Assembly (NCBI GenBank): GCA_016939335.1
Contig: JAFGHC010000027.1
Location: 1-60,666 of the forward strand
Direction of reading: 5' to 3'
Source: Candidatus Saganbacteria bacterium
GTDB lineage: Bacteria; Margulisbacteria; WOR-1; O2-12-FULL-45-9; XYB2-FULL-48-7
DNA: 60,666 nt
Shown here: in pieces, positions 2,415-60,496 of the stretch
Position numbering within the stretch: position 1 is the first letter of the stretch
How the letters are laid out: every line of letters begins with the position of its first letter
The notes under the pieces: generated by a model
Told to the model about the DNA's origin: nothing
Seen by the model: only the letters and a program-made list of their open reading frames with translations
Database searches by the model: none
Made by a program: the position numbers and the translations under genes

Positions 2415-2415
2415 T

Positions 2416-3420: not shown

Positions 3421-3452
3421 TCGTTATCGCTGTGATAAAATGATGATCCAAC

Positions 3453-3579: not shown

Positions 3580-4125
3580 CTATATTTTGGATAAACATTC
3601 GTCAAATTGTTCCGACAAAATAACCAAAGAATTATCTGGATGAAAAGTATTTTTCCCTACTCTTTTTAGGTAGCGGAGATACACGCGTTGGCGAAGAAAT
3701 GCGTCTAATAATGTCGCCGAGCGAGCAACAAGCACGCCTATTCTCCCAAGAGCAGAAGCATTTATTAAATCTCCAAGCAGATGTTTTCTACTCCCTGTAT
3801 CTTCAATCTCAATACAAAAAAGGCATCGCGCATTTTCATTAAAGTGCAGGATGCCATCAAACGAAACGCGTTCCTGAATATCACCGACAACATTTTTGTT
3901 ATGTTTATTAATCAAGCTTTCTACAAAACCACGCGTTTTCATGAGAGCTTGCGTGTATTCAGCCTCATATGTCCTTTGGATGGCAAAAGGCCCAACAGCC
4001 AAATCAACAACTGGGGAATATATTTGACGCCCCTCTCCCATAAATGGTCTCCACTGGACCTCCACTTCATTATAAAGCTTTTTCAATCTTTTTTTTGCTT
4101 TTTCCTGATATTCTCTCTCATTCAT
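3580..4125 (-). CDS. Predicted PD-(D/E)XK-like fold protein, island gene 3
   Basis: A 181-residue protein of unknown function, last gene of the AT-rich island operon. A possible restriction-endonuclease-like core is visible. After an N-terminal helix (YQEKAKKRLKKLYN) comes YSPVVDLAVGPFA, carrying an acidic residue at the position of the catalytic Asp. Further on, CLFCIEIEDTGSRKHLLGD supplies a strand with E-x-E in place of the usual E-x-K, followed by NASALGRIGVLVARS. The IEIE-D-x-G-S-R-K-H-x-x-G-D-x-x-N-A phrase is a conserved pattern in a family of uncharacterised proteins that I know only as hypothetical. The missing Lys makes catalytic activity uncertain; a binding role is equally possible. 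It starts 19 bases after the 1177-residue gene and shares its low GC. Confidence 0.6.
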   Translation of the reverse strand: MNEREYQEKAKKRLKKLYNEVEVQWRPFMGEGRQIYSPVVDLAVGPFAIQRTYEAEYTQALMKTRGFVESLINKHNKNVVGDIQERVSFDGILHFNENARCLFCIEIEDTGSRKHLLGDLINASALGRIGVLVARSATLLDAFLRQRVYLRYLKRVGKNTFHPDNSLVILSEQFDECLSKI

Positions 4126-4144
4126 ATATTTCTAATCATCGCGG

Positions 4145-7678: not shown

Positions 7679-8229
7679 TTTGCTCGCCATTTGCGCATAA
7701 CATCCGAAGGCTCATATGTTCGGTTTGCATTTTTTATTGTTTCACGATTACTAATAATACCCATCAATTCCTCTGCATCAATTATTTTTATATAGCTAAA
7801 CTCTTTCTTATTGCTATAAATATATTCGGCGGCACTTTTATTCACTTTTCCTGAAGTAACTATATAAAAACCGTCGAGGTGCACTCCCTCGCTACCCTTA
7901 CTTGATGTTCCAAAATTAAAGCTATGAGAAAATGCCATTTTAATTTGATTTTGAATCGTTATAATGTTGCTGTTTTTATCTGGCTTTCCCTTGCAAACAA
8001 GATCGACACATTTTACTTGCACTCCAAATCTTTTTCGATGACGAAATATATCGGGATTTTCAAACCACACATCTATCCCCATCTCGGCGCTTCCGTGCAT
8101 ATCCTTAACATCTTCTGCAAAAATATAATTTAGAAGTGGAATTATAATCTTCTGACGCAATAAGTCCTCATTTTTGATGGACTTCAATATATCTATATTA
8201 ATAGTATCTAGATTAATGTTTTTCTTCAT
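7675..8229 (-). CDS. Restriction-endonuclease-like protein, island gene 1
   Basis: A 184-residue protein with a clear PD-(D/E)XK signature of the Mrr/type IV kind. HGSAEMGIDVWFENPD carries the helix glutamate and catalytic Asp, and RFGVQVKCVD supplies the Q-x-K strand. After an insertion, GFYIVTSGKVNKSAAEYI is the typical following strand and helix, ending in a short basic tail. Length fits a stand-alone nuclease domain with no separate recognition domain. It is the promoter-proximal gene of three and overlaps the next by four bases, so the three are presumably translated as a coupled unit. Low GC and A/T-ending codons contrast with the housekeeping genes on both sides. It is likely part of a defence system; the target is unknown. 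Confidence 0.7.
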   Translation of the reverse strand: MKKNINLDTINIDILKSIKNEDLLRQKIIIPLLNYIFAEDVKDMHGSAEMGIDVWFENPDIFRHRKRFGVQVKCVDLVCKGKPDKNSNIITIQNQIKMAFSHSFNFGTSSKGSEGVHLDGFYIVTSGKVNKSAAEYIYSNKKEFSYIKIIDAEELMGIISNRETIKNANRTYEPSDVMRKWRAK

Positions 8230-8560
8230 GCATAAATGCCTTGATTTTCTGCTTCTTTATTTACTTATTCAATCTGCATGATGAATTATTATACCTCTTT
8301 TGCCTGTTTTAATCGCGAATACTTAGATAATATGGCATTCTTGCTATGCTGGTCGTCAGTTTTTCCCTCTTCAGCAGTATTGTTAATAATCGACAAAGCT
8401 ATTTGTATCCCGCCCGTCCTTAAGAGAAGGCAACATTTCTTTTTTAATCTTTCGTTCTTTCGTTAATTTCGCTCCCTAAAGAACAACATCAAGGTTTTTA
8501 TTCAAACCTCTTTATGTTAAAATCACATTCAGTTAACGAATTAAAGGAGGGGGTGTTTCC
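8230..8560. other. Divergent intergenic region of the island
   Basis: About 330 AT-rich bases between the divergent nuclease operon and the small plus-strand gene. I see a candidate minus-strand -10 at 8288-8293 and a plus-strand promoter-like stretch near 8505-8530. A 62-codon frame at 8278-8466 has no ribosome site and an unnatural composition, so I do not call it. No tRNA, repeat array or recombinase fragment is visible. Confidence 0.6.
8288..8293 (-). promoter_or_regulatory. Candidate -10 box of the nuclease operon
   Basis: TATAAT on the minus strand, about 59 bases before the start of the first island gene. The -35 region is weak. It is the best promoter match in the divergent region. 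Confidence 0.45.
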
Positions 8561-8770
8561 ATGAAAGAATTTGTGGCAATTGAAGATTTAAACGAAGTGT
8601 TTGCTGATTTTAAGAGAAAATTAAATGGATATGTTTTAAGGCGTGCTAAAGAAGAAACTTTAAGGCTATCACCCAATAAAGCCAAGAGAATCATGGCTAA
8701 AGTATTAGATATTTATAAACAAAGAAAGCTAACAAATAAAATTCTTGATGACATCTTAAAATCCTCATAA
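8561..8770 (+). CDS. Small helical protein of unknown function (69 aa)
   Basis: A 69-residue lysine-rich protein predicted to be all helix, with segments ALDLNEVF-like at the start (VAIEDLNEVFADFKRKL), a middle RRAKEETLRLSPNKAKRIMAKV and an end KLTNKILDDILKSS. No family is recognised. It is real rather than spurious because an unusually strong AAAGGAGGGGG lies 7 bases before the ATG and a promoter-like TTAAAAT lies further upstream. Its AT-rich composition groups it with the nuclease island. It stands between that island and tsaD in the same orientation as tsaD, where an antitoxin, immunity protein or small regulator of the divergent operon would be expected; this role is a guess. Confidence 0.6.
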   Translation: MKEFVAIEDLNEVFADFKRKLNGYVLRRAKEETLRLSPNKAKRIMAKVLDIYKQRKLTNKILDDILKSS

Positions 8771-8824
8771 GAAATTATATTTTGTTCTTTATGTTTTCCG
8801 TAAATATCAAGGAGAACTACTGAT

Positions 8825-9868
8825 GTGTTAGTGATGGCCATCGAAACCTCCTGCGACGAGACCGCCGCCGCCGTCGTGCGCGACGGGCGGGAAGTTCTGT
8901 CCAGCGTCATCTCTTCGCAGACCGAGTTCCACAAAAAGTACGGCGGGATCGTGCCGGAGGTGGCCGCCCGCAAGCATATCGAGGTCATCTCGCCGGTCAT
9001 CAAGGAAGCGATGGAGACGGCAAAAGCCGGCTTCCGCGAACTTGACGCGGTCGCCGTCACCTGCGGCCCCGGGCTGGTCGGCTCGCTCATCGTCGGGCTC
9101 TCCGCCGCCAAAGCGATCGCCTGGTCGATCAACAAGCCCCTCATCGGCGTCAACCATCTTGAGGGACATATCTATGCGAACTTTTTAAATCCCAACCTCA
9201 AACTTCAAACATCCAAACAAAAGGCAAAGGACAATCATCAAAAACCAAATTTCCCTTTTGTTTGCTTGCTGGTTTCCGGCGGTCACACAATGATTATCAA
9301 AGTTAACGGGCACGGAGTCTACCAGACCCTCGGCCGCACGCGCGACGACGCAGCGGGGGAAGCGTTCGACAAAGTGGCGCGGTTCCTCGGTCTCGGCTAC
9401 CCGGGCGGGCCGGTCATCGACCGGCTGGCCAAAGAAGGCAACCCAAAGGCCGTGAAGTTCACCCGCCCCCTCCCCGACGGCTACGACTTCAGCTTCAGCG
9501 GGATCAAGACGGGTGTTGTCAACGTCAAGAGCCGTGACCCGGGACTCACGACCCGGGACATTGTTGCTTCCTTCCAGCAAGCCGTCGTCGATGTCCTGGT
9601 CGATAAAGCTGTCCGCGCCGCGCTGGACCACGGCTGTCAAACAATGACGCTCGCCGGCGGCGTTTCGGCAAATTCATTATTGAGAAGCCAGCTTGAAGCG
9701 CGCGGAGAAGACGCAGGCTTAAAGGTTGTCATCCCGCCCTTCGAATACTGCACCGACAACGCCGCCATGATCGCCAGCGCCGGATTTTATAAATACATCA
9801 ATTCGTCATTCGTCATTCGTCATTCGTCATTATCCCTTGAAGCCGTTGCCAGTTTGCGCCTGGAGTAA
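8825..9868 (+). CDS. tsaD: tRNA N6-threonylcarbamoyltransferase TsaD
   Basis: This 347-residue ASKHA-fold protein transfers the threonylcarbamoyl group to A37 of ANN-decoding tRNAs. Family signatures: AIETSCDET at the N terminus, KHIEVISPV with metal-binding His, NHLEGHIYAN with the H-x3-H metal site, LVSGGHTMI and the ATP-site GGVSANSLLR. A GTG at 8825, 10 bases after AAGGAG, gives the usual MLVMAIETSC start. Two stretches look alien. About 17 residues after HIYANFL (9186-9252), encoded by an A/C-rich word repeat, separate normally adjacent motifs. The C-terminal NSSFVIRHSSLSLEA is encoded by tandem ATTCGTC words. Both insertions are in frame and sit in surface positions. Two 5'-end fragments of this gene lie upstream at 2367 and 3453. 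Confidence 0.95.
   Translation: MLVMAIETSCDETAAAVVRDGREVLSSVISSQTEFHKKYGGIVPEVAARKHIEVISPVIKEAMETAKAGFRELDAVAVTCGPGLVGSLIVGLSAAKAIAWSINKPLIGVNHLEGHIYANFLNPNLKLQTSKQKAKDNHQKPNFPFVCLLVSGGHTMIIKVNGHGVYQTLGRTRDDAAGEAFDKVARFLGLGYPGGPVIDRLAKEGNPKAVKFTRPLPDGYDFSFSGIKTGVVNVKSRDPGLTTRDIVASFQQAVVDVLVDKAVRAALDHGCQTMTLAGGVSANSLLRSQLEARGEDAGLKVVIPPFEYCTDNAAMIASAGFYKYINSSFVIRHSSLSLEAVASLRLE
9186..9252 (+). repeat. In-frame word repeat inside tsaD
   Basis: A/C-rich sequence made of variations on AAATCCCAA and CTTCAAACATCCAAAC. It codes for an extra loop (LKLQTSKQKAKDN) between the HIYANF and FPFVCLLVSGGHT blocks of TsaD, which are normally nearly adjacent. Confidence 0.7.
9801..9834 (+). repeat. Tandem ATTCGTC words inside tsaD
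   Basis: Four near-copies of ATTCGTC/CATTCGT in tandem, in frame near the TsaD C terminus. The same words build the intergenic repeat at 42456-42569. Confidence 0.8.
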
Positions 9869-29360: not shown

Positions 29361-29780
29361 TTAATAGTTTGTTGTCTTGTTCTGAAAATAATCATAATAA
29401 TTGATCCAGGTGCCTGTTTTTTCTTTGGCCCTGAGGGATTGGATCAGCCTTTTCAAAATATAAATAGTTTTGCCGACTAACGAGTCGAGCGCATCAAACT
29501 CCTCTCGGGAAATCAATCTATCATCGAAACAGTCCCTGATGTCACCAAGCAACTCGGCGGCAGAATCATGCGAAATAGAAAGATATGACATGTATTTCTT
29601 GATCGACCCTTTGCCATAACCTTCTTGAATATTTTGTTTGATCGACCTGGCGGCGTCACGCATTTGAGAAACCCTGCGCATTTCTATTTTCGGGAACTTC
29701 GTAGTAATCTCATGAACCATCTTTCTCAATTTATAAGCATTTTGCCAGGCGATCAGCTTTTCGTACCCTTTCCCCTCCAC
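29361..29780 (-). CDS. Four-helix-bundle protein (23S rRNA IVP family), second copy
   Basis: A 139-residue four-helix-bundle protein. Marks: YEKLIAWQNAYKLRKMVHEI at the start, RVSQMRDAARSIKQNIQEGY in the middle, MSYLSISHDSAAELLGDIRD and LVGKTIYILKRLIQSLR. It differs clearly from the copy at 19773 and is not a recent duplicate. The GTG start at 29780 follows GGAGGG, and both the ribosome site and the first codons lie at the edge of a GGGA-word repeat. It is upstream of, and coupled to, the transporter substrate-binding gene, although the family has no known link to transport. No rRNA gene is near. Confidence 0.85.
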   Translation of the reverse strand: MEGKGYEKLIAWQNAYKLRKMVHEITTKFPKIEMRRVSQMRDAARSIKQNIQEGYGKGSIKKYMSYLSISHDSAAELLGDIRDCFDDRLISREEFDALDSLVGKTIYILKRLIQSLRAKEKTGTWINYYDYFQNKTTNY

Positions 29781-31287: not shown

Positions 31288-31824
31288 CTATTTAAAAATC
31301 ATCTGTTTCAACAGCTCGATCATCTCATTGATGATTTTCTTAACTCTTGCGATTTCGCCCGCTTTGATCTTATCTTTTTGAAAAAGATGCATAATAGCGC
31401 GTGAATGCGTGGATAGTTTGTTCATCACAGCTGGGCTTTTTAGAATCATTTGCCTATTTTTACCCATTATTTCTTCCAAAATCGTAAAAGCCCGCATGAT
31501 TTGAATTGAACGTTGAATGGCGACCGGAGATCTTAGAACAACTGATACCATATTGGCGCCGTTACGCGTGAAAACATAGGGCAGATACCGGCGGCCACCC
31601 CAACTTGAGGTCGCAATTTGCGACCTCAAGAATTTATATTCAGGCCCCGTTAATTGGAACATAAAATCAGCTGGAAATCTTTCGGAGTTCCGCTTAACTC
31701 TTTCCACCAGTTTTTTCGTGGGAATACAATATATTTTGGCTAAGTCAACGTCCAAGATCACTCTCTGTCCTCTTATTTCAATTATCATCGACTGTATCTC
31801 CCTCGTTTCAACAATATCTGACAT
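31288..31824 (-). CDS. ORF6N-domain protein
   Basis: A 178-residue protein with an N-terminal ORF6N domain: IEIRGQRVILDVDLAKIY, KKLVERVKRNSERFPADFMF, FLRSQIATSSWGGRRYLPYV and FTRNGANMVSVVLRS. The domain was named from phage antirepressors of the KilA-N/ORF6N class and is taken to bind DNA. The C-terminal half is a helical RAFTILEEIMGKNRQ and IARVKKIINEMIELL. I choose the ATG at 31824, which follows GGGAGGG, over one at 31875. The GC content is lower than that of neighbours, and it sits between gspF and metG, so it is probably acquired. Its coding sequence contains a perfect 27-base palindrome (31604-31630). Confidence 0.85.
   Translation of the reverse strand: MSDIVETREIQSMIIEIRGQRVILDVDLAKIYCIPTKKLVERVKRNSERFPADFMFQLTGPEYKFLRSQIATSSWGGRRYLPYVFTRNGANMVSVVLRSPVAIQRSIQIMRAFTILEEIMGKNRQMILKSPAVMNKLSTHSRAIMHLFQKDKIKAGEIARVKKIINEMIELLKQMIFK
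31604..31630. repeat. Perfect 27-base palindrome in ORF6N gene
   Basis: Arms of 13 bases (CTTGAGGTCGCAA and its complement) around one central base, in the codons for LRSQIATSS. It could be an intragenic operator for the encoded DNA-binding protein. Confidence 0.7.
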
Positions 31825-31833
31825 GATTTCCCT

Positions 31834-31861
31834 CCCAGAAGTCTCATTTAGCGACTTCTGA
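31834..31861. promoter_or_regulatory. Inverted repeat in ORF6N leader
   Basis: CAGAAGTC and GACTTCTG separated by about a dozen bases, immediately before the ribosome site of the ORF6N gene. It is a candidate operator or leader hairpin; no T-run follows, so a terminator is unlikely. Confidence 0.4.
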
Positions 31862-31976
31862 ATTGAGGGAAGCAATTTTATTGCCAGAAAGAAGAGAAAT
31901 TTTGTAGCTGTTTTTTTATGATAAAATCGGGGAAAACAGAAAAAGCAAGATTTCTGGACCGGCGGGATTTCGTCAG

Positions 31977-33473
31977 TTACTTTTGAATTCGGGGGAAAAG
32001 CGGCGCCCCTTTGACGACTTTCTCGCCGCTGAGGTTAATCTGGGCCTTGATTTTTTCCGCGGTTTCGGGCATGAATGGAGCGATCAGCGCCGTGACCAGC
32101 GTGAGAACCTCGACCAGGTTAACCAGCACCAGCGCCAACCGCTCTTTCTCTCCGTTCTTGGCCAGCGTCCAGGGCGCCTGTTTTTCAATGTAAACGTTGG
32201 CCCGGGAGATCAGCGTCCAGATCGCCGTCAGGGCGTCCGAAAACGCCAACTCATCCATATATTTATCGACCAGCCCAGGGGTCTCTTTGATCAGGCCGAT
32301 CAATTCCCGGCTCAAATCGTCCATGACCGCGGATTTCGGACTTGGAACTTGTGACTCGCAGTATTTCTCCACCATCGTCAGCGTCCGGCTCAAGAGGTTC
32401 CCCAGATCATTGGCCAGATCAGCATTATACCGGTTGATGAAAGAATTCATGGAAAAGTCGCCGTCAACGCCGAACGGCACTTCGCGCAGGATGAAATAGC
32501 GGACGGCGTCGACCCCGTACTCCGCGCTCAAGGCGAGCGGATCGACCACGTTGCCGCGGCTCTTGCTCATTTTTGCCCCTTCGACCGTCCACCAGCCGTG
32601 CCCGAAAATTTTTTTCGGCAAAGGCAGCCCCAGCGCCAGCAGCAGGCAAGGCCAGGTCACGGCGTGGAAACGGACGATCTCCTTCCCCATCAGATGGACG
32701 TCGGCCGGCCAGAACTTGCGGAAGAGGCCGTCATCGGCGCTCAAATAACCGAGGGCGGAAACGTAGTTGATCAGCGCGTCGAACCAGACGTAGACGACAT
32801 GGCGCGGGTCCTCGGGCACGACGATCCCCCAGGGAAAAGCGGTGCGCGTGACCGAAAGGTCTTTCAGCCCCTGTTTGACGAACTGAACAATCTCGTTGCG
32901 GCGCGGCTCGGGCCGGATAAAATCTGGGTTGGCCTCGATGTGCCGCAGCAGCGGTTCCTGGTATTTGGAAAGCCGGAAGTAGTAGGTCTCTTCGCGCAGC
33001 CGGTCGGCCGGCCGGCCGCAGTCGGGGCAGAGCCGGCGCTCCTCCATGTCCTCGGCCAGGTCGGACTCGTTCCAATAAGTTTCGCAGGGGACGCAGTACC
33101 ACCCCTCGTATTCGCCCTTGTAGATATCGCCCTGTCTGAGCAGCCGGCCGAAGATCTTCTGGACGGCCGTTTCGTGCTTCCGGTCGGTGGTGCGGATGAA
33201 GTCGTCATAGCTGATGCCCAGTTTGTCCCAGGCGTCCCGGAAGCGGACGACTATCTTATCGACATATTCCTGAGGCGACAGGTTGTTTTGTTCGGCCGCT
33301 TTCCAGACCTTCTGGCCGTGCTCGTCAGTGCCGGTGAGAAAATGGACGTCGCAGCCCGCCGCCCGCTTGTGGCGCGCCAGCACGTCGGCGGCGATCGTCG
33401 TGTAGGCGTGGCCGAGATGCGGCACGTCGTTGACGTAATAAAGGGGGGTCGTCAGGTAAAACTTTTCCTTCAT
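31977..33473 (-). CDS. metG: Methionyl-tRNA synthetase
   Basis: A 498-residue class I synthetase that charges tRNA-Met. The ATP-binding HIGH-type motif is VPHLGHAYT (His19-His22 region) and the KMSKS loop is AKMSKSRGNVVDP. The connective-peptide zinc site has C-x2-C pairs in WYCVPCETY and RLCPDCGRP. The C-terminal anticodon-binding helical domain ends near LIAPFMPETAEKIKAQ. It lacks the C-terminal EMAP/Trbp111-like tRNA-binding domain seen in longer forms. The ATG follows a minus-strand TATAAT by 6 bases. Confidence 0.96.
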   Translation of the reverse strand: MKEKFYLTTPLYYVNDVPHLGHAYTTIAADVLARHKRAAGCDVHFLTGTDEHGQKVWKAAEQNNLSPQEYVDKIVVRFRDAWDKLGISYDDFIRTTDRKHETAVQKIFGRLLRQGDIYKGEYEGWYCVPCETYWNESDLAEDMEERRLCPDCGRPADRLREETYYFRLSKYQEPLLRHIEANPDFIRPEPRRNEIVQFVKQGLKDLSVTRTAFPWGIVVPEDPRHVVYVWFDALINYVSALGYLSADDGLFRKFWPADVHLMGKEIVRFHAVTWPCLLLALGLPLPKKIFGHGWWTVEGAKMSKSRGNVVDPLALSAEYGVDAVRYFILREVPFGVDGDFSMNSFINRYNADLANDLGNLLSRTLTMVEKYCESQVPSPKSAVMDDLSRELIGLIKETPGLVDKYMDELAFSDALTAIWTLISRANVYIEKQAPWTLAKNGEKERLALVLVNLVEVLTLVTALIAPFMPETAEKIKAQINLSGEKVVKGAPLFPRIQK

Positions 33474-33594: not shown

Positions 33595-34269
33595 ATGACA
33601 TACGTAAGCGCACTAATTCCATCCTTAACTCTGGCCGCCGGGCTGAATAAAAAGGGAGAGGGCTCATCGGTCAAAGCGATCGCCGGCGAGGTCGTAAAGA
33701 TACTGGAGAACGACGGCACTGACAACGCCTCTGTTAAAGCGGCTGATTATCTTAAAGGGCAAACAACCAGCGCCGAGAAACAGGGGAAAGTACTGGAAGA
33801 GGTCAGGAAAGCCCTGATCGCTACCGGTGAATATGACAATAACTCCATCAACACTGTCATTGGCGATATTCGCAATCGGCTCCGCTCTGCTTCGGCGCCA
33901 AAAGCGGAGGAAGTAAGACCGGCGGCGGCCGCCGCCAGCGGAGAGCTTAAGGGCGAGATCGTCAGCATCACCAAGACCGGCTCGTTCGGCGGCGACGGAT
34001 CGCCGCAGGTGAACATCAAGGTCAAGATCGAGAACCTGCCGGCAGGCGCTCACACCTTGAGCGGTTTCCTTCGGACCAATAAAGATTGGCCGGCGGGCGG
34101 CTGCACCACCGGCGGCAAGAGCTCCGGGACGTTCACTTTCCAGGCGTACCTCCATCCGGGCAATCAGTCGAGCCCGTTCTATATCGAGGTTGCCGATAAA
34201 TACGGCAAAAAGCTCGGCCGGATCCCTGAAGGGGATTACGACACTCTGAAAGTTCGTTTCCCGAGGTAG
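33595..34269 (+). CDS. Orphan protein with beta-sandwich C-terminal domain shared with the cellulase
   Basis: A 224-residue protein in two parts. Residues 1-115 are helical (VKAIAGEVVKILENDGTDNA, then KVLEEVRKALIATGEYDNN) and end in an Ala-rich linker. Residues about 120-224 are a beta-rich domain: GEIVSITKTGSFGGDGSPQV, VKIENLPAGAHTLSGFLRT, GTFTFQAYLHP and FYIEVADKYGKKLG. The GH9 enzyme encoded next ends in a domain of the same length and strand order (IRFRFTNIPPAVVSLKGNIY and FFIQGFDRTGKRIF), so the two are probably homologous. That suggests a shared carbohydrate-binding or anchoring role, which I infer only from linkage. No signal peptide. AGGGGGTG precedes the ATG. Confidence 0.7.
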   Translation: MTYVSALIPSLTLAAGLNKKGEGSSVKAIAGEVVKILENDGTDNASVKAADYLKGQTTSAEKQGKVLEEVRKALIATGEYDNNSINTVIGDIRNRLRSASAPKAEEVRPAAAAASGELKGEIVSITKTGSFGGDGSPQVNIKVKIENLPAGAHTLSGFLRTNKDWPAGGCTTGGKSSGTFTFQAYLHPGNQSSPFYIEVADKYGKKLGRIPEGDYDTLKVRFPR

Positions 34270-34282
34270 CATCATAATTAGA

Positions 34283-34306
34283 GGAGGGAGACATCGGTCT
34301 CCCTCC
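34283..34306 (+). other. Strong intercistronic hairpin
   Basis: Ten paired bases (GGAGGGAGAC/GTCTCCCTCC) around an ATCG loop between the 33595 gene and the cellulase gene. No T-run follows, so it is more likely a transcript-stability or partial attenuation element than a terminator. Confidence 0.6.
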
Positions 34307-34331
34307 CTTATCACAGGAATGACCGTAATTT

Positions 34332-36527
34332 ATGACCTTGGCAATTTCCGATACTACCAGCGCCCTGTTGCTGGCTTATCATTTAGAAAAAAAAGATAGT
34401 TCGTCGGCTTCTTCTCCCCCCGGTGAAGAAGGGGCGCATCTGGTCAGAAAAGCTTCCCCCTCTGCCCCGGCGGAAGGGACGCACCTTGTTAGGAAAACCG
34501 CCTCCTCTGCCCCGTCGGACGTCGACATTCTGGTCAATCAGGCCTTTTATCTCCCCGGCTACTCCAAGGTCGCGCTGGTCCGCGCCAATAGCGAAATCGC
34601 GGCCGGCAAATTCAAACTTACCGAAACCAGCAGCAATAAAACCGTTCACGAAGGCGCGCTAAAAAGATATGGAACATATGCCCGCTGGGGCAATGAGTTT
34701 TATTACTTCGCTGATTTTTCTTCACTCAACAAAGAAGGAACGTATAAATTAACGGCCGAATGGCCGGGGCATCAGGCCTCCGCTGCTGTTGTCATCAAAA
34801 AATCGGAATTGAGCCGCGCGACAGGCAATGCGGCCGGGTTTTTTTATTTTCAGCGCTGCGGCGCGGCGATTCCCGGCTGGCACGGGCCCTGCCATACCAA
34901 TGATCCAGAGGGGACGGCCGGCGGCTGGCACGACGCGGGAGATTATAATAAATACATTTACACCCAGTGGCAGCCGGCTTGGGCGCTTCTCGATCTTTAC
35001 CAGAAAACAAAGGACCGGAAATATCTGGCCGAAGCTAAATGGGGAGAGGATTTTTTGGCCAAAATGGTCAGGCCCGACGGGAGCATGTGGAGCGCCGTCT
35101 TCGGCGGCTGGGACTGGACCAGGCCGGAACAGGGCAATACCAGGGAGCTGACGTCAGCTCAATGGGGCGACCCGACCTGGGCAGTAGCGGCCAACAGCGC
35201 GACTTTCGCTAAGATGGCCGCTTATACTTCCGGCACGGAGCACGAGAAGTTCCTCCGCCTGGCCAAACAGACCAACCAGTATTTCCGTCAGCATTTCCGG
35301 TTCGGGCACATCCCGCGCGGCGAAGACCTTCAGGGGCTCGGCGGAATCGTCCTCAGCGACCTTTTGCTCCACGAACAGACAGGCGACGGCTCATATTTGG
35401 CCGACGCCGAAAAGAACGTCCGCCTGATCCTGGCGCACCAGGACCGGCGCGGCTTCTTCTTTACCGACAGCAACAGGCAAGAACCTTTCTGGGACGACTA
35501 CATGACCTATTTCTTTGTCGAGGCGCTCGGCGATTACGCCCGCCGTTTCCCGCGCCGCGAGCTGACCGGCCAGATCAAGGCCGCCCTGCGCAACCTGGCC
35601 GATAACCAGTTGAAATTCCTCTCCTCCCGCACTCCTTTCCGCCAGATGCAAATGCTCGACCCTCTCGACCAGCACCCGCCGAACGGCGAGGTTTTTGAGA
35701 ACTTTTTCGACAAGAAGATCGAAGGCTGGATCCGCGGGGCCAATAGCTACTACCTGTCGTCGGCCAACGCGGCGATGATCGCCTATTCCCTGCTCGGCAA
35801 GCCGGAGTACAAGGAGATCGCCATTAACCAGCTGAACTGGGTGCTCGGGGTCAATCCTTATGGCATTTCTTTCATGGAGGGGAGCTGCGTCAGGTGCACT
35901 AAGAACGGTCATCACCGTTATGACACTTTACCCGGGCACGCCAATGGGATTGTGCCGGGCGGGATCACCAACGGTCTGGCCAGCAACAACGGAGAAGATT
36001 ATTTTTACGACGCTCTGGGCAAGACCTGGGCGAGCAATGAGACCTGGCTGCCGCATAACGCCTGGTTCATCATGCTCGGCTTAAAACTTTCCGCTTATCT
36101 TGATGAGGCGGCCGCCGCTTCCAGCCTGACCGTCAACAGTGATAGCGCCAACGCTGAAAAAAAACCGCCGGCCGCCCCGGAACCGGTCGTGATCAGCGCT
36201 TCCGGCCTTCTCCCCAACATCACTTTCCAGTCGGTAGTCAGGAATGGAACGCTCAAAGAGAACGGCGATTCGATCGGCGTTGATATCAGGTTCCGGTTCA
36301 CCAACATTCCTCCGGCGGTCGTTTCTCTCAAGGGAAATATATATACCAGCGGCATCTGGCCGCAGGGAGAAGTTAAGGTCGAACGGGGGAAAAGCGACTA
36401 TATTTTCAAGGCCTTCCTGTACAAATTGAACCGTTTCAGCGGTTTTTTTATCCAGGGTTTCGACCGGACAGGAAAAAGAATCTTTCAAAGCGATTCATTC
36501 CCGATCGAACTACCTCCCAAGAAATAA
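34332..36527 (+). CDS. Glycoside hydrolase family 9 cellulase without signal peptide
   Basis: A 731-residue GH9 endoglucanase-type enzyme that hydrolyses beta-1,4-glucans by inversion. Order: a disordered N terminus with a duplicated G-A/T-HLVRK-(T/A)-S-(P/S)-SAP unit (about residues 34-60); an Ig-like CelD_N domain (ILVNQAFYLPGYSKVALV to WPGHQASAAVVIKK); and the (alpha/alpha)6 catalytic domain. The catalytic part shows the base motif GGWHDAGDYNKY, the HHRYDTLPGHANGIVPGG block and the acid Glu in SNETWLPHNAWF. The last 100 residues are the beta domain shared with the 33595 protein. All catalytic residues are present, but there is no Sec signal, which is odd for a cellulase. It may use another export route or act on an intracellular glucan. 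It is probably co-transcribed from P5. Confidence 0.88.
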   Translation: MTLAISDTTSALLLAYHLEKKDSSSASSPPGEEGAHLVRKASPSAPAEGTHLVRKTASSAPSDVDILVNQAFYLPGYSKVALVRANSEIAAGKFKLTETSSNKTVHEGALKRYGTYARWGNEFYYFADFSSLNKEGTYKLTAEWPGHQASAAVVIKKSELSRATGNAAGFFYFQRCGAAIPGWHGPCHTNDPEGTAGGWHDAGDYNKYIYTQWQPAWALLDLYQKTKDRKYLAEAKWGEDFLAKMVRPDGSMWSAVFGGWDWTRPEQGNTRELTSAQWGDPTWAVAANSATFAKMAAYTSGTEHEKFLRLAKQTNQYFRQHFRFGHIPRGEDLQGLGGIVLSDLLLHEQTGDGSYLADAEKNVRLILAHQDRRGFFFTDSNRQEPFWDDYMTYFFVEALGDYARRFPRRELTGQIKAALRNLADNQLKFLSSRTPFRQMQMLDPLDQHPPNGEVFENFFDKKIEGWIRGANSYYLSSANAAMIAYSLLGKPEYKEIAINQLNWVLGVNPYGISFMEGSCVRCTKNGHHRYDTLPGHANGIVPGGITNGLASNNGEDYFYDALGKTWASNETWLPHNAWFIMLGLKLSAYLDEAAAASSLTVNSDSANAEKKPPAAPEPVVISASGLLPNITFQSVVRNGTLKENGDSIGVDIRFRFTNIPPAVVSLKGNIYTSGIWPQGEVKVERGKSDYIFKAFLYKLNRFSGFFIQGFDRTGKRIFQSDSFPIELPPKK

Positions 36528-36530: not shown

Positions 36531-36632
36531 CTACTCCCCGACCGGGAACAGGATCCTGATCTCCGCCATGTTGGAAAGAACGCTGTTCAGCTTCTTCGGC
36601 ACCTCGCCGGTCAGATAATAGGGTTCGAATGG
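36531..36632 (-). pseudogene. 3' remnant of an Asp-box protein gene
   Basis: The minus strand encodes PFEPYYLTGEVPKKLNSVLS then NMAEIRILFPVGE and a stop. The intact gene at 39239-40396 ends EFPDYYLTGGVPEKLNNALS then NVAEIRILFPVNP. At the DNA level it is a clear direct repeat of 39243-39343. The homology ends two bases before the -35 element of P6, so a paralogue appears to have been cut away at that point. Confidence 0.8.
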
Positions 36633-36633
36633 G

Positions 36634-36661
36634 TGAAATTTTTCCCGTTTTTTCACGATAA
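36634..36661 (+). promoter_or_regulatory. Sigma-28-type promoter P6
   Basis: TGAAATTT (36634-36641), 12 bases, CACGATAA (36654-36661). It abuts the 3' gene remnant and is 23 bases before the ATG at 36685. Confidence 0.7.
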
Positions 36662-36684
36662 ATATACGTGGAGATCATTATCAA

Positions 36685-38676
36685 ATGACCGGTCGTATCA
36701 GTACATCTTTAGAAAAAGCTCGGGCGACAGGCCGTTCTCTAACTCGCTACGCCCGGCGGCTTTTATTGCCTTTAGGCATAGCGGCCGGCCTGGCCGGCCT
36801 TGGAACAGTCGCTACGCTCGCCAAATTCACCAAAGACGAATCGTTTAAAGGGGCAGTGTATCACCCATATGTTCCCGAAGTCCGGCCATTGATCAAAAAC
36901 GTTCTCCCTCTCCCGGAAACATTGAGCAAGCTAACCGCCCAGGGCGCTCTCTCGGAAAGCGATCTTTACAACCTGGCCGACAGAGCTCATCAGCAACTAT
37001 ATGAAATGAGAGATAAAACCGGGAGGCTCACGAACGATGACGCTGACAGTCTCGTCAAAATCGCGCGCGCCATCGATCAAGCCAATACGCAACATCTTGA
37101 CGCGGACAATCAATGGCTGGCAGTTATTACGCGGATTAAAATCGCAGAGACGCTATTTTTATCATTAAAGGGAGAGAGCTTTTATTCGCCAAAGTGCGGA
37201 CCTTATATCGATCTTGCCATGGATATCGCTTCACAAAATTATGGGCGGCTTGCCGCCTTCCCGCGTTCGGCAGAAATTTTAGGGCTTAAAAGAATAGATG
37301 ATCCGCGACTGATCCCGGTTATAATCAATGACATCCTTTATGCGGCGCTCCATCTGTCCGAGACGCGTCCCTTGCCTATTTGCGAAAAAGAAGGAAACTC
37401 CCCCGACCGGTTCGGGCAATTTGACGAATATGTCAGGGGTATAATTTTCCGGGGTGACGGAGGGGCCGACATGACCTTGGAAGAACAAAAGGATATCGCG
37501 CTCACTTATCTCGAACAAAGAATGAGGAACGGCTATTGGTACAAGGGGAAAGCCCAGGCGGCTAACCGTTATTATCAAGAACTGGTCGGGGGCCGCCTGG
37601 TCCGCATCGACATAGAAAACCTGAAGATAGTCTCCACGGCGCGCAAGGCGTTGCGCAAAAAAGTTCCGCTTTTTAAGGAAAGCTGCGCGGCACACGAGTG
37701 CCCCCCGACCCTGCTGGCGACCATCGCGCTTTATAATAATTTATTTAAGGCGCGCTTCCCTGTCTATCGGGTAGCTGACGGGCTTAGTATCTTTTCCTCA
37801 TCTACGTCAGAAGCTTCCCTGGCCTCAAAAGCGGCAAAATGGGCGCGGGGAAAATGGAGCGAACCACTTAAAGGCATTGCCTTTCAAGACCGGTTTACAG
37901 ACTTTATATCGGGAGTGTTCCTGGGCGCCTGCGGGACAACGGGCCTGATGCAAGTTCGCGCCTGCCCTCTTCAGTTTCAACACATAAAGAATATTAGAGA
38001 AGATGACTTATGGGGGAGATTGGCCGCACCTGCCGATGACTGGTCCAACCAGCGAATAAATTATGCTTTATATTTTAAGGATAAATATTCGATCGAAGCC
38101 GGGGCCGCGCTTTGGGGACAGATGCTCAAGAGACTGGAACAAATTGAACTGGCCGGGCAGCCGCAGTCAGTCAGCCTGCCTAAAATGGCTCATTTCAAAA
38201 ACGGAAATTGGCGGCTAAATTATTCTCCCGACCAATCTTTCTTCGGTCCGGACTTCTTTTCGTCATTATTTGAGGCCACCTACGGAAGGTTTCATTCTGG
38301 AGAATATCTCTATTCCGGCTTAATCGACCCCCCTAAGGCCGACGTTCCCGCCTATGCAACAGATTACATAGATCCGGCGACATATTTGTTCAACGTATAT
38401 TTTTTGCCCAATGCCCGCCCTTTTTCCGCGCTCCATCGCGTTATTCTTCAATCAGGTCTCTTCCGGGCAGGTAAAGGGCTTTTTGTGGGCCTAACTCGAA
38501 TTAATCAATTGGAACAATTGGACAAGGCTCTTTTATCCGGCGACGAGTACCTAGCCAAGGCGGCCGAAAGAACTATTTGCGCAATAAGCGCGGATGCTTC
38601 TCACCCGCAATTCAAGGAAAAAGCGATTGCCATAAGAGAGAATAGGAATTTAGCTTGTAATTTTTCAATAGAATGA
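36685..38676 (+). CDS. Large membrane-anchored orphan with transglycosylase-like motif
   Basis: A 663-residue protein with a basic N terminus and one membrane helix at about residues 26-47 (LLLPLGIAAGLAGLGTVATL), then a long soluble part. The only familiar stretch is ECPPTLLATIALYNNLFKAR followed, about 70 residues on, by FLGACGTTGLMQVRACP. The GLMQV phrase is the hallmark of lytic transglycosylase (SLT/lysozyme-fold) domains, and IEAGAALWGQMLKRLE also resembles their end. The expected catalytic Glu is not where I would look for it, so activity is doubtful. The C-terminal 200 residues match nothing known. It has its own sigma-28-type promoter, and GTGGAG precedes the ATG. Confidence 0.55.
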   Translation: MTGRISTSLEKARATGRSLTRYARRLLLPLGIAAGLAGLGTVATLAKFTKDESFKGAVYHPYVPEVRPLIKNVLPLPETLSKLTAQGALSESDLYNLADRAHQQLYEMRDKTGRLTNDDADSLVKIARAIDQANTQHLDADNQWLAVITRIKIAETLFLSLKGESFYSPKCGPYIDLAMDIASQNYGRLAAFPRSAEILGLKRIDDPRLIPVIINDILYAALHLSETRPLPICEKEGNSPDRFGQFDEYVRGIIFRGDGGADMTLEEQKDIALTYLEQRMRNGYWYKGKAQAANRYYQELVGGRLVRIDIENLKIVSTARKALRKKVPLFKESCAAHECPPTLLATIALYNNLFKARFPVYRVADGLSIFSSSTSEASLASKAAKWARGKWSEPLKGIAFQDRFTDFISGVFLGACGTTGLMQVRACPLQFQHIKNIREDDLWGRLAAPADDWSNQRINYALYFKDKYSIEAGAALWGQMLKRLEQIELAGQPQSVSLPKMAHFKNGNWRLNYSPDQSFFGPDFFSSLFEATYGRFHSGEYLYSGLIDPPKADVPAYATDYIDPATYLFNVYFLPNARPFSALHRVILQSGLFRAGKGLFVGLTRINQLEQLDKALLSGDEYLAKAAERTICAISADASHPQFKEKAIAIRENRNLACNFSIE

Positions 38677-38783
38677 ACCGTACGACCAATTTACTTTGCC
38701 AGATCAAACCGGTCAAGCGGCTTTTTGGCCGTTGGCCGCTGAGCGGAAACAGCGTCACAATCTCGAATACGTCGGCAATAAAG

Positions 38784-38811
38784 TGAAATTTGCCGGGCGC
38801 GGAGAGGATAT
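38784..38811 (+). promoter_or_regulatory. Sigma-28-type promoter P7
   Basis: TGAAATTT (38784-38791), 12 bases, GAGGATAT (38804-38811). The -10 is the weakest of the set and overlaps a TATATAAT that a vegetative sigma factor could use. It precedes the 38847 gene. Confidence 0.55.
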
Positions 38812-38846
38812 ATAATCAGCCTGCGTCAAGTTGAAAGGAGCAGCTC

Positions 38847-39224
38847 ATGTCCGATTCGCTCGCCGGCCCCGTGCCGGCCAAGGTCCCGGTCTACCGCCTG
38901 GTCCCCGCCGAGCAAAGAAAAAGAAAGCGGGGGAACGAAAAGGAGCGGCTCGGCACGGCCAGCGCCATGATCAAGGTCTATTCGCACGACGTGCTGGCCG
39001 CCGCGGAAGAAGGCCGCAAGACCAGGCTGCTCTGCCAGATCACCGCTACGGTCCCAAGCAAAACGGGCCGGTCCGCCGATCAGGTCGAGGAGGTATTCGA
39101 CCTGGATCACCGCGAAGCCGCCCCCTACATAAAAGCTTCGACGACCTTCCCGGACACCTGCAGTATCTATACGCTGATAATCAAACGGCCGGCCGATCCC
39201 CGCAATATAAATTTCCTGAAATAG
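38847..39224 (+). CDS. Orphan small protein, sigma-28 regulon candidate
   Basis: A 125-residue protein of unknown family. The first 35 residues are basic and flexible (VPVYRLVPAEQRKRKRGNEK). The rest looks like a small alpha/beta fold: TASAMIKVYSHDVLAAAEEG, TRLLCQITATVPSKTG, DQVEEVFDLDHRE and CSIYTLIIKRP. It has two cysteines and no signal peptide. AAAGGAGC precedes the ATG at a normal distance. It is convergent with the Asp-box protein gene (14-base gap). A longer frame in another phase starting at 38831 is a composition artefact. Confidence 0.6.
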   Translation: MSDSLAGPVPAKVPVYRLVPAEQRKRKRGNEKERLGTASAMIKVYSHDVLAAAEEGRKTRLLCQITATVPSKTGRSADQVEEVFDLDHREAAPYIKASTTFPDTCSIYTLIIKRPADPRNINFLK

Positions 39225-39238
39225 CCCGGCTCGCCAAG

Positions 39239-40396
39239 CTACGGGTTAACCGGAAACAGGATCCTGATCTCCGCCACGTTGGAGAGCGCGTTATTCAGCT
39301 TCTCCGGGACCCCGCCGGTCAAATAATAGTCGGGAAATTCGCAAACCGGCAGCGGCCGCCACCGGCCGGACGGATCGTCCTTCAGCTTGACGTCCACCAG
39401 GAAACGGTCGAGCAAACGCGCCTCCCAATCGTCCTTAAAGAGATCGGCCGCCAGGTAATCGGGTTTGATGAACGCGCGGAAGAGCGGCGCCCGCCCCTCG
39501 AGCGACGGTTCGCCGTCGAGCGGGGCGACGACCAGCCACTGCGGCGCACCGTAAGCGTATTTAAGGGCGGCCGCGTGACCGGCGGGGATGATCTGGAAGC
39601 CGCCCAGGCTGCCGAGCGGCGAAGTGGAAACGTCGAGCACCCCCGCGTGATTGGCCCTGACCCGGCCGGCCGAAGCGTATTTGCTCCCCTCGAACCGCCC
39701 GATCCCCCGCGCGGGAAAAACGACGCTGCCGACCTCCCTGGTCTCGCCGTTGAAATATGCGACGACGACCCGGCCGCCGGCCCGGTTCTCGATCTCGATC
39801 TCTCTGGGATAATCGACCGGGACCTCAACGATGAGGTAGATCCTGTCCTCGGGCCAGGGGACGTAACCGGGCGGGACCGGCTGATAAACGTAACCGGCGC
39901 GGTGGACCATTACCCGGTTGCCGACCAGCGGCGCGTACTCGCCGCCGAAGATCCCCGTGCCGGCCGGAATATCGGTGTAGATCGAAGCGTCGGCGCTGAA
40001 ATATGACCGGTAATCACGGGGCGGGCTGTAAAACTCCTTCGGCAGCAGGCTGAAAATGACCGCGCGCCCGTCGGCCTCGGTCGAGGTCTTCAGGTGGATG
40101 GCGTTGACCGCCGTGGCGGCCACCTGGCCGTCGGGCACCCAGCGGGCCGCGGCGTAGCCGTGCGGATTGGTCTGGACCGTCGGAGCGACGACCTTGCCCA
40201 ACCGCTGCCAATTCTTGCCGCGGTCGGCGCTGACCTCGACCGTTCCGCCGGCCTGGTTCCAGACCTTGATCCGGTAGATCTCCTTGAGCTTGAGAACGGG
40301 CGCAGCTTCCGGACTGGCAGCTTCGGGTGTAACTTGAGCCAAACAGACAGCCGAAAGCAGACAGCCGAAAGCAGACAGCAGGAGAAGTCGCCGCAT
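39239..40396 (-). CDS. Secreted protein with Asp-box motif, last gene of the TPM-LemA-PepA cluster
   Basis: A 385-residue exported protein of unknown function. Its signal peptide (MRRLLLLSAFGCLLSAVCLA, cleavage before QVTPEA) is built from tandem CAGACAGCCGAAAG-type words. The mature protein begins with YRIKVWNQAGGTVEVSADRG and KNWQRLG; S-x-D-x-G-x-x-W is the Asp-box of BNR/sialidase-like propellers, here as a single copy. The central part is beta-rich (EDRIYLIVEVPVDYPREIEI, then NRAGGRVVVAYFNGETREVG), and the end is the conserved-looking YYLTGGVPEKLNNALSNVAE. A 3' fragment of a paralogue lies at 36531. The start shares one base with the pepA stop. Confidence 0.7.
   Translation of the reverse strand: MRRLLLLSAFGCLLSAVCLAQVTPEAASPEAAPVLKLKEIYRIKVWNQAGGTVEVSADRGKNWQRLGKVVAPTVQTNPHGYAAARWVPDGQVAATAVNAIHLKTSTEADGRAVIFSLLPKEFYSPPRDYRSYFSADASIYTDIPAGTGIFGGEYAPLVGNRVMVHRAGYVYQPVPPGYVPWPEDRIYLIVEVPVDYPREIEIENRAGGRVVVAYFNGETREVGSVVFPARGIGRFEGSKYASAGRVRANHAGVLDVSTSPLGSLGGFQIIPAGHAAALKYAYGAPQWLVVAPLDGEPSLEGRAPLFRAFIKPDYLAADLFKDDWEARLLDRFLVDVKLKDDPSGRWRPLPVCEFPDYYLTGGVPEKLNNALSNVAEIRILFPVNP
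40342..40384. repeat. Tandem word repeat encoding a signal peptide
   Basis: Two and a half tandem copies of CAGACAGCCGAAAG. On the minus strand they code for LLSAFGCLLSAVC, the hydrophobic core of the signal peptide of the 39239 gene. Related words occur in frame in argF at 46690. Confidence 0.8.
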
Positions 40397-57308: not shown

Positions 57309-59084
57309 ATGACCAAGCACAAAGAATTAAATAAATGGGTCAAAGAATGCGCCGAGCTGTGCAAGCCGGACAAGATCGTCTGGTGCGACGGCTCGCTTGA
57401 GGAAAAAGAACGGCTGGAAAAACTCGCTTTCAAGAGCGGCGAGCTGATCAAGTTGAGCCAGCAGAAGCTCCCCGGCTGCACCTATCACCGGACCGCGCAG
57501 AACGACGTCGCCCGGACCGAGCATTTAACTTACATCTGCACGAAGCACAAGCAGGGCGCCGGCCCGACCAACAACTGGCTGCCGCCGGAAGAGGGCTACC
57601 GGCGCGCCGGCGAGATCTTCAAGGAATCAATGAAGGGGCGGACGATGTACGTCATCCCTTATTCGATGGGGCCGGTCGGCTCCCCTTTTTCCAAGATCGG
57701 CGTCGAGCTGACCGACAGCATCTATGTCGTCCTCAACATGCGGATCATGACCCGGATGGGCAAGGCCGTGCTCGATCAGCTGGAAAAGAGCGGCGGCGAC
57801 TTCACCCGCTGTCTGCACGGCAAGGCCGATCTTGACGTCGACCGGCGGCTGATCCTCCACTTCCCGGAAGACAACACGATCTGGAGCGTCGGCTCCGGCT
57901 ACGGCGGCAACGTCCTGCTCGGCAAGAAATGCCTTTCGCTCCGGATCGGCAGTTACCTCGGCCGGGCCGAGGGCTGGCTGGCCGAGCATATGCTGATCAT
58001 GGGGGTCGAAGAGCCATCCGGCGCGATCACTTACATCGCCGCCGCTTTTCCCTCCGCCTGCGGCAAAACGAACCTGGCAATGCTCCTGCCGCCGGAAGGG
58101 CTGAAGCGGAAAGGTTACCGGATCTGGACGGTCGGCGACGACATCGCCTGGATGCGGATCGATACCGACGGCAAGCTCTGGGCCGTTAATCCGGAATACG
58201 GCCTCTTCGGCGTGGCGCCGGGGACCAATACCAAAACGAATCCCAATATCATGGCAGCGATCAAGAAGGGGACGATCTACACCAATGTGCTCCTCAAGAA
58301 AGACAAGACCGTCTGGTGGGAAGGGGGCGACCCGCCCGTGCCGGCTTCGGGAACCAACTGGCAGGGAAAACAATGGAAGCCCGGCCTGGTCGACGAGAAC
58401 CGTCAGCCGATGCTGGCCGCCCATCCCAACGCCCGGTTCACCGTGCCGATCCAGAACGTCCCGTCGGTCACCAACCGGCTGGAGCACCACCACGGCGTGC
58501 CGATCGCGGCGATCATTTTCGGCGGCCGGCGCGCCCGGCTGGCCCCGCTCGTCTACGAAGCGTTCAGCTGGCAGCACGGCGTTTTTGTCGGCGCCACGAT
58601 GGCGTCGGAGCGGACCGCCGCGCAGTTTGGCGCCCAGGGTGAAGTCCGCCGCGACCCGATGGCGATGCTCCCGTTCTGCGGCTACAACATGGGCGATTAC
58701 TTCCGGCACTGGCTGGCGCTGGGGAAGAAGATGGTCGCCCCGCCGAAGATCTTCAACGTCAACTGGTTCCGCAAGGACAAGGACGGCAAATTTCTCTGGC
58801 CGGGGTTTGGCGAGAACCTGCGCGTCCTCGAGTGGATCATCAGCCGCTGCAAGGGCGAAGTGGACGCGGTCAGGACGCCGATCGGCTGCCTGCCGCACGA
58901 GAACGACATCGACATGACCGGCCTGCGCATCCCGCGCGAGAACATGAACAAGCTCCTCGCCATCAGCAAGGCCGACTGGAAAGAAGAAGCGGCCAGCATC
59001 GCCGAGTTCTTCAAGACTTTCGGCAAAGACCTGCCCAGAGAGATGGGCTCCGAGCTCGCCGCGCTGCAAAAAAGACTACGCTAA
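57309..59084 (+). CDS. pckG: Phosphoenolpyruvate carboxykinase (GTP)
   Basis: A 591-residue GTP-dependent PEPCK that interconverts oxaloacetate and phosphoenolpyruvate. Marks: RTAQNDVARTEHLTYICT, the PEPCK motif YVIPYSMGPVGSPFSKIGVE, the P-loop with its hypervariable Cys FPSACGKTNLAML, the metal site WTVGDDIAWMRID and NPEYGLFGVAPGT. The C-terminal guanine-binding region includes FNVNWFRKDKDGKFLWPGFG. It links the tricarboxylic acid pool to lower glycolysis, here represented by gpmI and eno. The 3' end overlaps the convergent abiEii gene by 9 bases. Confidence 0.97.
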   Translation: MTKHKELNKWVKECAELCKPDKIVWCDGSLEEKERLEKLAFKSGELIKLSQQKLPGCTYHRTAQNDVARTEHLTYICTKHKQGAGPTNNWLPPEEGYRRAGEIFKESMKGRTMYVIPYSMGPVGSPFSKIGVELTDSIYVVLNMRIMTRMGKAVLDQLEKSGGDFTRCLHGKADLDVDRRLILHFPEDNTIWSVGSGYGGNVLLGKKCLSLRIGSYLGRAEGWLAEHMLIMGVEEPSGAITYIAAAFPSACGKTNLAMLLPPEGLKRKGYRIWTVGDDIAWMRIDTDGKLWAVNPEYGLFGVAPGTNTKTNPNIMAAIKKGTIYTNVLLKKDKTVWWEGGDPPVPASGTNWQGKQWKPGLVDENRQPMLAAHPNARFTVPIQNVPSVTNRLEHHHGVPIAAIIFGGRRARLAPLVYEAFSWQHGVFVGATMASERTAAQFGAQGEVRRDPMAMLPFCGYNMGDYFRHWLALGKKMVAPPKIFNVNWFRKDKDGKFLWPGFGENLRVLEWIISRCKGEVDAVRTPIGCLPHENDIDMTGLRIPRENMNKLLAISKADWKEEAASIAEFFKTFGKDLPREMGSELAALQKRLR

Positions 59085-59885
59085 TCCCTTTTCGATCGCC
59101 GTTAGAAAATAATCCTTTTTGAAATACTCTCGTTCCGCCCGATCGCTTAAAAATGGCGCGACGTCGTTTAGTATCTTATGGAAATCGGTTTGAGCTATCT
59201 TTTCTCTCAACAACGCCTTCAGGGCGTTCGCGTCCAAATTAAAGCGCCCGCCCTCGGTTTGTTCGGCCGCGGCCGAGAGCAGAGCACAATTAACCGGGGT
59301 TTTCCTGGCCAAAAACCAGAGCAGATCGTAATAATCGCGCCCTTTGGCGTATTGGCGGAAAAGGAACGCGTGCAGTTTGGCAGCGAACAGCGAAGGCAAA
59401 TCGTAGCTTCTGACCTTAAAAAGAAAATTTTTGTTGACCAGGGAAATTTCCGTCAGATACCCCGCCGGAGGGTTGGCGTCGATCTCCAATTTAATGAACA
59501 GTTTCTCCGCTTTGTGGCTAGTCAAACCGAGATCAAATAACAGGCCCTTGAACCGGATAAATTCGCCCAGGACATTCTTCTCTTTTTTATCGGCCGACGC
59601 CTCCACGTCAAAACCGTTCAGGCCAAGCTCACGCTTGAGGGCGGCCAGCAGACGGTCAAAGCGGAAGCCGTCCTTCTTGACCAAACAAAAATCAAGGTCT
59701 TCGGAAAAGCGCGGCAGATCATAGAGCACCCGCAAGGCGGTGCCGCCGACAAAAGCCAGGTTGGCAAAATAGCCCTGCCGGTCCATGATCTGCAGGATCA
59801 ACTCCTGGAGAAATTCGCGGGCGGCATTATATTTTTCTTCGCGCGAGCCCAGGCCGGCAAGTTTGGCCGCCAAAACATCTTTCAT
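59076..59885 (-). CDS. abiEii: AbiEii-type nucleotidyltransferase toxin
   Basis: A 269-residue protein of the AbiEii/AbiGii family, the toxin of the type IV toxin-antitoxin system AbiE, originally known for phage abortive infection. The nucleotidyltransferase core is FVGGTALRVLYDLPRFSEDL followed by DFCLVKK: G-G-T-A-L and the S-E-D-L-D-F metal motif. Later marks are FAAKLHAFLFRQYAKGRDYY and DLLWFL. The ATG overlaps the abiEi stop. All catalytic residues are visible, so the toxin should be active. Confidence 0.9.
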   Translation of the reverse strand: MKDVLAAKLAGLGSREEKYNAAREFLQELILQIMDRQGYFANLAFVGGTALRVLYDLPRFSEDLDFCLVKKDGFRFDRLLAALKRELGLNGFDVEASADKKEKNVLGEFIRFKGLLFDLGLTSHKAEKLFIKLEIDANPPAGYLTEISLVNKNFLFKVRSYDLPSLFAAKLHAFLFRQYAKGRDYYDLLWFLARKTPVNCALLSAAAEQTEGGRFNLDANALKALLREKIAQTDFHKILNDVAPFLSDRAEREYFKKDYFLTAIEKGLA

Positions 59886-60496
59886 CGCCAGCCCTCCGCG
59901 AGGTCCTGCAGTTTTTTTACTCCGTAGCGGGCCGCGTAAGCGGTTAATTTGCGCTTATTAAGAACGGGCCTGTTTTGCAGGCGCAATGAATCGCGCAAAT
60001 AACCGGCCGGATTTTTACCGAGAGCGTTAAGATTTAAGTAAAGATAATCGAGCAGCGCTTTTTCCGGTTCGGCGATAAAGTACGGGAAGCCGGACTCGTC
60101 GCGCGCCTGCCGAAAGCCGAAATAAGCGTGTTTCTTCAAATGGCGATAGCTAAAAAAACCTTCTTCGTTGGCGAACTCCGCCGTCTTGCGGGCGGTGACT
60201 GAAGTGACAGAGACAGTCTTTTCGGGGATCAGTTTATAATAACTTAACGCGGTTTCCAGGCTGATATATGACGGCTGGTACAGAGTGGCGGCGATCAATT
60301 CCCTGGACAGCGCCGCCCCCCGCTCCTCCCGGCTCAAAGCATACAGCCCTTTGCGCAAACTGACGATCAAACCCCGTTTTTTCCAGCGGAGCAATTGGTT
60401 CCGCAGCGCTTGCGGATCGGCCGCGAATAGCTTAGCCACGTCTCCGCTGAACAGCGGGCTCTTTTTGACCTTTTGCTTGAACTCCTCGAATCTCAT
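59882..60496 (-). CDS. abiEi: AbiEi-type antitoxin/regulator
   Basis: A 204-residue antitoxin with an N-terminal winged helix (LRNQLLRWKKRGLIVSLRKG, then LYALS) that binds its own promoter in studied AbiE systems. The C-terminal half is the antitoxin domain: YISLETALSYYKLIPEKTVS, FFSYRHLKKHAYFGFR and AEPEKALLDYLYLN. The ATG follows TAGGAGA. The upstream region holds a TTGACA-N17-TATCAT promoter and an inverted repeat that fit autoregulation. Confidence 0.9.
   Translation of the reverse strand: MRFEEFKQKVKKSPLFSGDVAKLFAADPQALRNQLLRWKKRGLIVSLRKGLYALSREERGAALSRELIAATLYQPSYISLETALSYYKLIPEKTVSVTSVTARKTAEFANEEGFFSYRHLKKHAYFGFRQARDESGFPYFIAEPEKALLDYLYLNLNALGKNPAGYLRDSLRLQNRPVLNKRKLTAYAARYGVKKLQDLAEGWR

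Follow-up and report, generated by a model that had tools for sequence, protein, structure and literature searches.

Displaced 3' gene ends beside accessory genes in Saganbacteria: a probable insertion into a conserved gene's last codons and similar scars at further loci

Why are the last codons of a conserved gene found a second time, 2.7 kb away, directly beside a promoter-like motif? We addressed this question in a window of 60,666 nucleotides, the whole stretch of DNA analyzed here, which is part of the genome G000 (1.53 Mb, 42 contigs). The gene, which we call A, and the features around it are as follows.

31977-33473, minus strand: metG, apparent ancestral downstream neighbor of A
33504: promoter-motif site of the g33595/GH9 insert
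33595-36527, plus strand: putative earlier insert between A and metG, comprising g33595 and a GH9 enzyme
34332-36527, plus strand: the GH9 enzyme (GH9 E=4e-38)
36531-36632, minus strand: displaced copy of the last 33 codons and stop of A (70/81 identity, profile E=5e-12, stop in register)
36633-36660, plus strand: promoter-like motif P6, GTGAAATTT-N15-GATA, starting one base past the displaced tail
36685-38676, plus strand: ORFan g36685, 663 aa, probably inserted
38783-38813, plus strand: second promoter-like motif, ahead of g38847
38847-39224, plus strand: ORFan g38847, 125 aa, probably inserted
39239-40396, minus strand: gene A, intact and conserved, no Pfam family; the other tail copy is at 39239-39340

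The initial annotation had described the fragment at 36531-36632 as a repeat of the 3' end of A in the same orientation, and we have confirmed this. The direct repeat (36541-36621 and 39249-39329, spacing 2708) is identical at 70 of 81 positions (86%); it scored E=2.6e-20 when the whole window was searched against itself and 5.6e-23 in a gene-tail search. The minus-strand frame of the fragment is open from F (codon -33), which is as far as homology to A reaches, through the stop, and the stop codons of the fragment (36531) and of A (39239) fall in alignment. The encoded C termini are ...FEPYYLTGEVPKKLNSVLSNMAEIRILFPVGE in the fragment and ...FPDYYLTGGVPEKLNNALSNVAEIRILFPVNP in A, each followed by the stop. 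A profile built from 19 A tails, with the fragment left out, scored the fragment at E=5.2e-12 and A's own tail at E=8e-20; everything else in the six frames of the window was at noise level (next-best E=1.3). A DNA search of the whole of G000 found no third copy of the tail. A degenerate third copy near 38745, before the g38847 promoter, was suggestive by eye and was not significant when tested.

As A lies on the minus strand, the fragment corresponds to its 3' end, and its stop faces that of the convergent GH9 gene, from which it is separated by 3 bases. The other end of the fragment, at 36632, is one base ahead of the GTGAAATTT element of P6. The single frame that crosses the fragment is about 41 codons long and starts at a GTG antisense to P6; the fragment is thus not part of a longer expressed gene, which would have undermined the original reading. 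Elsewhere in the window there are other accessory genes: AbiEii with a partner ORF (59076-60496), an ORF6N-domain protein (31288-31875), and a 23S rRNA-intervening-sequence protein (29361-29780).

We then compared the locus with relatives. A search of contigs with an alignment of A returned 80 loci, while a single A sequence gave no match. A is full-length and single-copy in 32 of the 57 genomes searched, and the tail is present in 31 of these 32; two complete copies of A were found in no relative. The gene order in relatives, all on one strand, is argF-argG-argH-ndk-(tpm)-(lemA)-pepA-A-metG, and in 11 of them the gap between A and metG is about 10 to 60 nt. In the window the same gap is 5.7 kb and holds, in order, g33595, GH9, the displaced tail (minus strand), g36685, and g38847, the four genes being on the plus strand. 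None of these four genes has a homologue in 20 syntenic loci, and g36685 and g38847 have none among the genomes of 56 relatives. No Pfam, NCBIfam, or PHROG family was found for g36685, and for g38847 no family scored above its cut-off (an S16-like match was sub-threshold). Thus, relatives carry one complete A beside metG and no regulon genes, the arrangement by which the fragment had been proposed to be recognizable as the footprint of an insertion. This empty arrangement was observed at family distance and beyond rather than within the genus of the window. The gap appears to be a hot spot: G001, G003, G006, and G010 hold other genes there, and the insert of G010 has motif sites close to both ends.

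The explanation that we favor, and consider likely, is that a unit consisting of P6, g36685, the second promoter, and g38847 was inserted into the 3' end of A and left a copy of the tail on its far side. In the ancestral state pepA, A, and metG would have been adjacent. GH9 and g33595 would have entered first, between A and metG; since the stop of GH9 is 3 bases from that of the displaced tail, GH9 probably adjoined A before the g36685 unit came in. The unit would later have entered the last ~33 codons of A. The outcome would be two tails, one that completes A and one (36531-36632) left between GH9 and P6 at a distance of 2.7 kb. Insertions of this kind would be tolerated because the duplication restores the end of the gene. 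The repeat and its frame, the empty arrangement in relatives, the ORFan status of both genes, and the recurrence described below are observations; how the steps followed one another and how the DNA recombined are inferred. The tails have diverged to 86% identity, which makes this an old event with blurred edges.

To place this locus among others, we scanned the sampled genome stretches for gene ends that occur a second time at another place on the same strand. Besides the window, about a dozen displaced gene ends were found in G000, G003, and G002 and at an A homologue of another family. In G000, the ends of tsf (50 nt, 96%), thiC (38 nt, 92%), and argB (38 nt, 95%) are duplicated; at tsf, an inserted 281-aa ORF has its promoter motif directly against the displaced tail, which is also the arrangement in the window. 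G003 has duplicated ends of A, abiEi, eno, and tyrS, and G002 has those of two genes. The same scar is present at loci L133 and L137. The repeats are 33 to 197 nt long at these loci, compared with 81 to 102 nt at the window. G003, which belongs to the same family, has an independent displaced A tail with different cargo. Locus L218 adds a third independent instance involving an A homologue, with a 45-nt tail copy (98%) beyond a Fic-family gene; this is a Saganbacteria genome of another family, and the scar is therefore not confined to the family of the window. The displaced ends bracket AbiEii/AbiEi (at eno), ParE (at tyrS), ORF6N (at L133), or Fic genes, or ORFans with the same promoter motif. 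At L109, a gene start is duplicated and the inserted gene is a nucleotidyltransferase of the MNT type.

An automated count gave 13 free displaced tails in 1.73 Mb of four same-family genomes, 11 of them solid or usable, as 2 sit in a repeat region of G004; the rate is biased, since promoter motifs guided part of the G000 sampling and A guided the choice of the L041 and L047 stretches. No free displaced tail was counted in a comparison sample of 0.86 Mb, drawn from E. coli K-12 and from relatives at the order, class, and phylum levels. These counts are lower bounds: the ORF filter missed tsf, which is masked by a longer antisense ORF, and thiC, where the repeat ends 31 nt short of the stop codon. 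Matches at L084 and L160 were weak or in repeat regions and were kept out of the main evidence. The repeats of L060 and L062 turned out to be intergenic satellite sequence rather than gene ends, and the candidate at L067 (7734-9546) is a neighboring gene pair with shared starts and ends, apparently diverged paralogues.

Several other arrangements were noted during the scan. At L087 (contig C14 of G000, 507-3556), AbiEii and a neighboring 519-aa gene have the same final codons, NVLELLGISAPE(T/S)M and the stop; here the displaced tail seems to have become the C terminus of the inserted toxin gene. The A-metG gap of G003 (L041, contig C21) contains nested repeats, arranged X' Y' core Y X. Its outer pair comprises the abiEi end and the A end (90 nt, 88%), and an SLH-type gene end (106 nt, 80%) forms the inner pair; a single insertion does not explain the inner pair. 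At L059 (contig C3 of G000, 3177-4747), three small related neighbor genes near two promoter-motif sites have strongly conserved starts and ends (75 to 91% over short stretches). At L060 and L062 (contig C4 of G000) and at L084 (contig C10), satellite-like repeats with the pattern CGAAATTCGAAATACGAA or GAATTACGAATGACGAATG lie between genes, and some extend into gene ends.

Which of the two copies is native? G008, a congener of G003, lacks the insert at tyrS, and the one tail present there can be aligned to each of the G003 copies; this is an empty site. The displaced tyrS end of G003 is identical to G008 at 27 of 27 positions and the intact tyrS at 22 of 27, while the two G003 copies are identical to each other over the ~100 bases preceding these last 27. 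The DNA beyond the displaced copy is homologous to G008. Likewise at eno of G003, the displaced copy ends in F..PKR and the stop, as in G008, and the intact gene ends in Y..PKKS and the stop. Since the displaced tails match the congener better than the intact genes do, some inserts apparently imported a gene end. Simple decay of a duplicate would not give this pattern, which suggests that the incoming DNA brought its own gene end; at tyrS and eno it probably carried its own version, joined by recombination within the tail. The opposite was observed at L133, where the intact gene and not the displaced tail is nearer to the congener, and L218 fits plain copying of the target. Thus, both routes may occur. 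Across ten repeat pairs the differences are coding-like, with 32.5 synonymous to 28.5 nonsynonymous changes (p=1e-5 when tested against neutrality and 0.027 against a mixture in which one copy is neutral and the other constrained); the window pair alone is too small to discriminate.

The initial annotation had also taken the fragment to mark the boundary of a regulon unit. The motif in question, TGAAATTT-N15-GATA, which resembles a sigma-28-type promoter, has 48 sites in G000 against 2 for the reversed pattern, with near-constant spacing, and is also enriched in the samples of G003 and G012. Two sigma-28-like candidates are present in G000, below the family cut-off (contig C4, 75396-76064; contig C13, 3393-3998). 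The window unit and the tsf unit are both motif-driven and bordered upstream by a displaced tail, and to this extent the proposal holds. It does not extend to a general rule, as the promoter motif is missing from the units bracketed at eno, tyrS, argB, and L133. Among loci from samples that were not chosen by motif, the motif is within ~150 bp of a repeat copy at 3 of ~11 (L103, L115, and L137), for which a rough estimate of chance is 0.2. The link between the promoter motif and the scars is suggestive.

Could a site-specific recombinase account for the displaced ends? Tyrosine-recombinase integrative elements target the 3' ends of genes; the element restores the gene end, and the old end is displaced to the far side. 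The scars share this restored end and displaced old end, and the mosaic ends of the tyrS repeats resemble a reciprocal exchange. A tyrosine recombinase, since lost or acting in trans, might thus have integrated site-specifically into the 3' end of A, with the tails as attachment-site hybrids. However, scans of g36685, g38847, and other inserted ORFs turned up no integrase family, and the repeats at A, tsf, argB, thiC, eno, and tyrS are mutually unrelated, with no common core. Because no recombinase was found in the inserts examined and the target ends share no sequence, we consider an element of this kind improbable.

The other suggestion of the initial annotation, tandem duplication followed by loss, is not supported. 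In this history, the block of g36685, g38847, and A would have been duplicated and one copy then deleted save for A's tail. The truncated A end and its orientation could likewise arise in this way, and the Y'/Y repeat of the G003 locus could be such a remnant. It would nevertheless require two deletions where an insertion needs one event, two A genes are present in no relative, and the G008 tyrS site has no insert and a single tail. It also leaves unexplained why the scar recurs at unrelated genes, always as short tails (33 to 200 nt). We find this history quite improbable. The fragment exactly fills the gap between GH9 and P6 with its frame intact, as might be expected had it been retained for a regulatory job, for example as a GH9 terminator or part of P6. 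Yet terminator-like matches in the region are no more frequent than in shuffles (6 versus 5.1), and the match inside the fragment is on the minus strand, the wrong direction for GH9; a regulatory role as the reason for its retention is very improbable.

Insertion of the unit with duplication of the tail thus remains our preferred reading, and it resembles a known type of event. Insertion with long target duplication was described from two H. pylori genomes (Nobusato et al. 2000), frequently with restriction-modification genes (PMC1643837), and these insertions are said to have 'long and variable target duplications' (PMC3031569). In these accounts, accessory genes lie between long direct repeats derived from the target, the unoccupied site is single-copy, and a transposase is not needed. 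Here too, target-derived repeats of tens to hundreds of bases flank the inserts. A related genome has a single repeat and no insert for the window (at family distance and beyond) and for tyrS (in a congener). The cargo is different: restriction-modification genes are absent from the window insert, whose genes belong to no recognizable family. As that association is reported as frequent and not universal (PMC1643837), we took the geometry and not the cargo as defining. Unlike the H. pylori cases as described, the cargo here consists of ORFans with a shared promoter motif or of toxin-antitoxin genes, the lineage is another, the 3' ends of conserved genes are preferred, and there is evidence of imported ends (tyrS, eno). 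Homology-facilitated illegitimate recombination, a laboratory-defined process (PMC3240628), joins one side via homology to a conserved gene and the other without it; inserts that carry a gene end of their own might plausibly have arrived by this route. An insertion sequence or transposon does not fit: the inserted ORFs examined contain no transposase, and the edges of the window insert have no convincing inverted repeat pair. Since the repeats are coding ends of different genes, an integron gene cassette is unlikely.

Taken alone, the window feature is ordinary in kind; what makes it interesting is that it recurs at core genes unrelated to one another, the cargo being toxin-antitoxin and regulon genes. 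The scars are a sequence-level record of small lineage-specific genes entering the compact genomes of an uncultivated group, with the last codons of core genes as the entry point and the gene end repaired by duplication. They could help to date and polarize gene gains, and to examine whether regulon ORFans and toxin-antitoxin modules come in by a common route. A bolder proposal, which we hold to be rather unlikely, is that a dedicated and undescribed process of this lineage places gene units at the 3' ends of conserved genes as a main route of gene gain, using imported or copied ends and no element-encoded recombinase, the units being toxin-antitoxin modules and members of the TGAAATTT-N15-GATA regulon.

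Finally, a short near-copy of the 3' part of a gene nearby is also a feature of diversity-generating retroelements. This was rejected for the window: the differences between the fragment and A involve all bases and are not adenine-specific, and there is no reverse transcriptase among the inserted genes. G000 does have such a retroelement at another locus (L078; contig C41, 4000-22900), at 7023-8996. It comprises a reverse transcriptase ORF (7117-7914, RVT_1), a template repeat (7023-7101), and a variable repeat (8171-8249), with nearly all differences at template adenines. The variable repeat is in a 280-aa gene with an FGE-sulfatase-like match; a motif belonging to the same regulon (9071, minus strand) precedes this gene.
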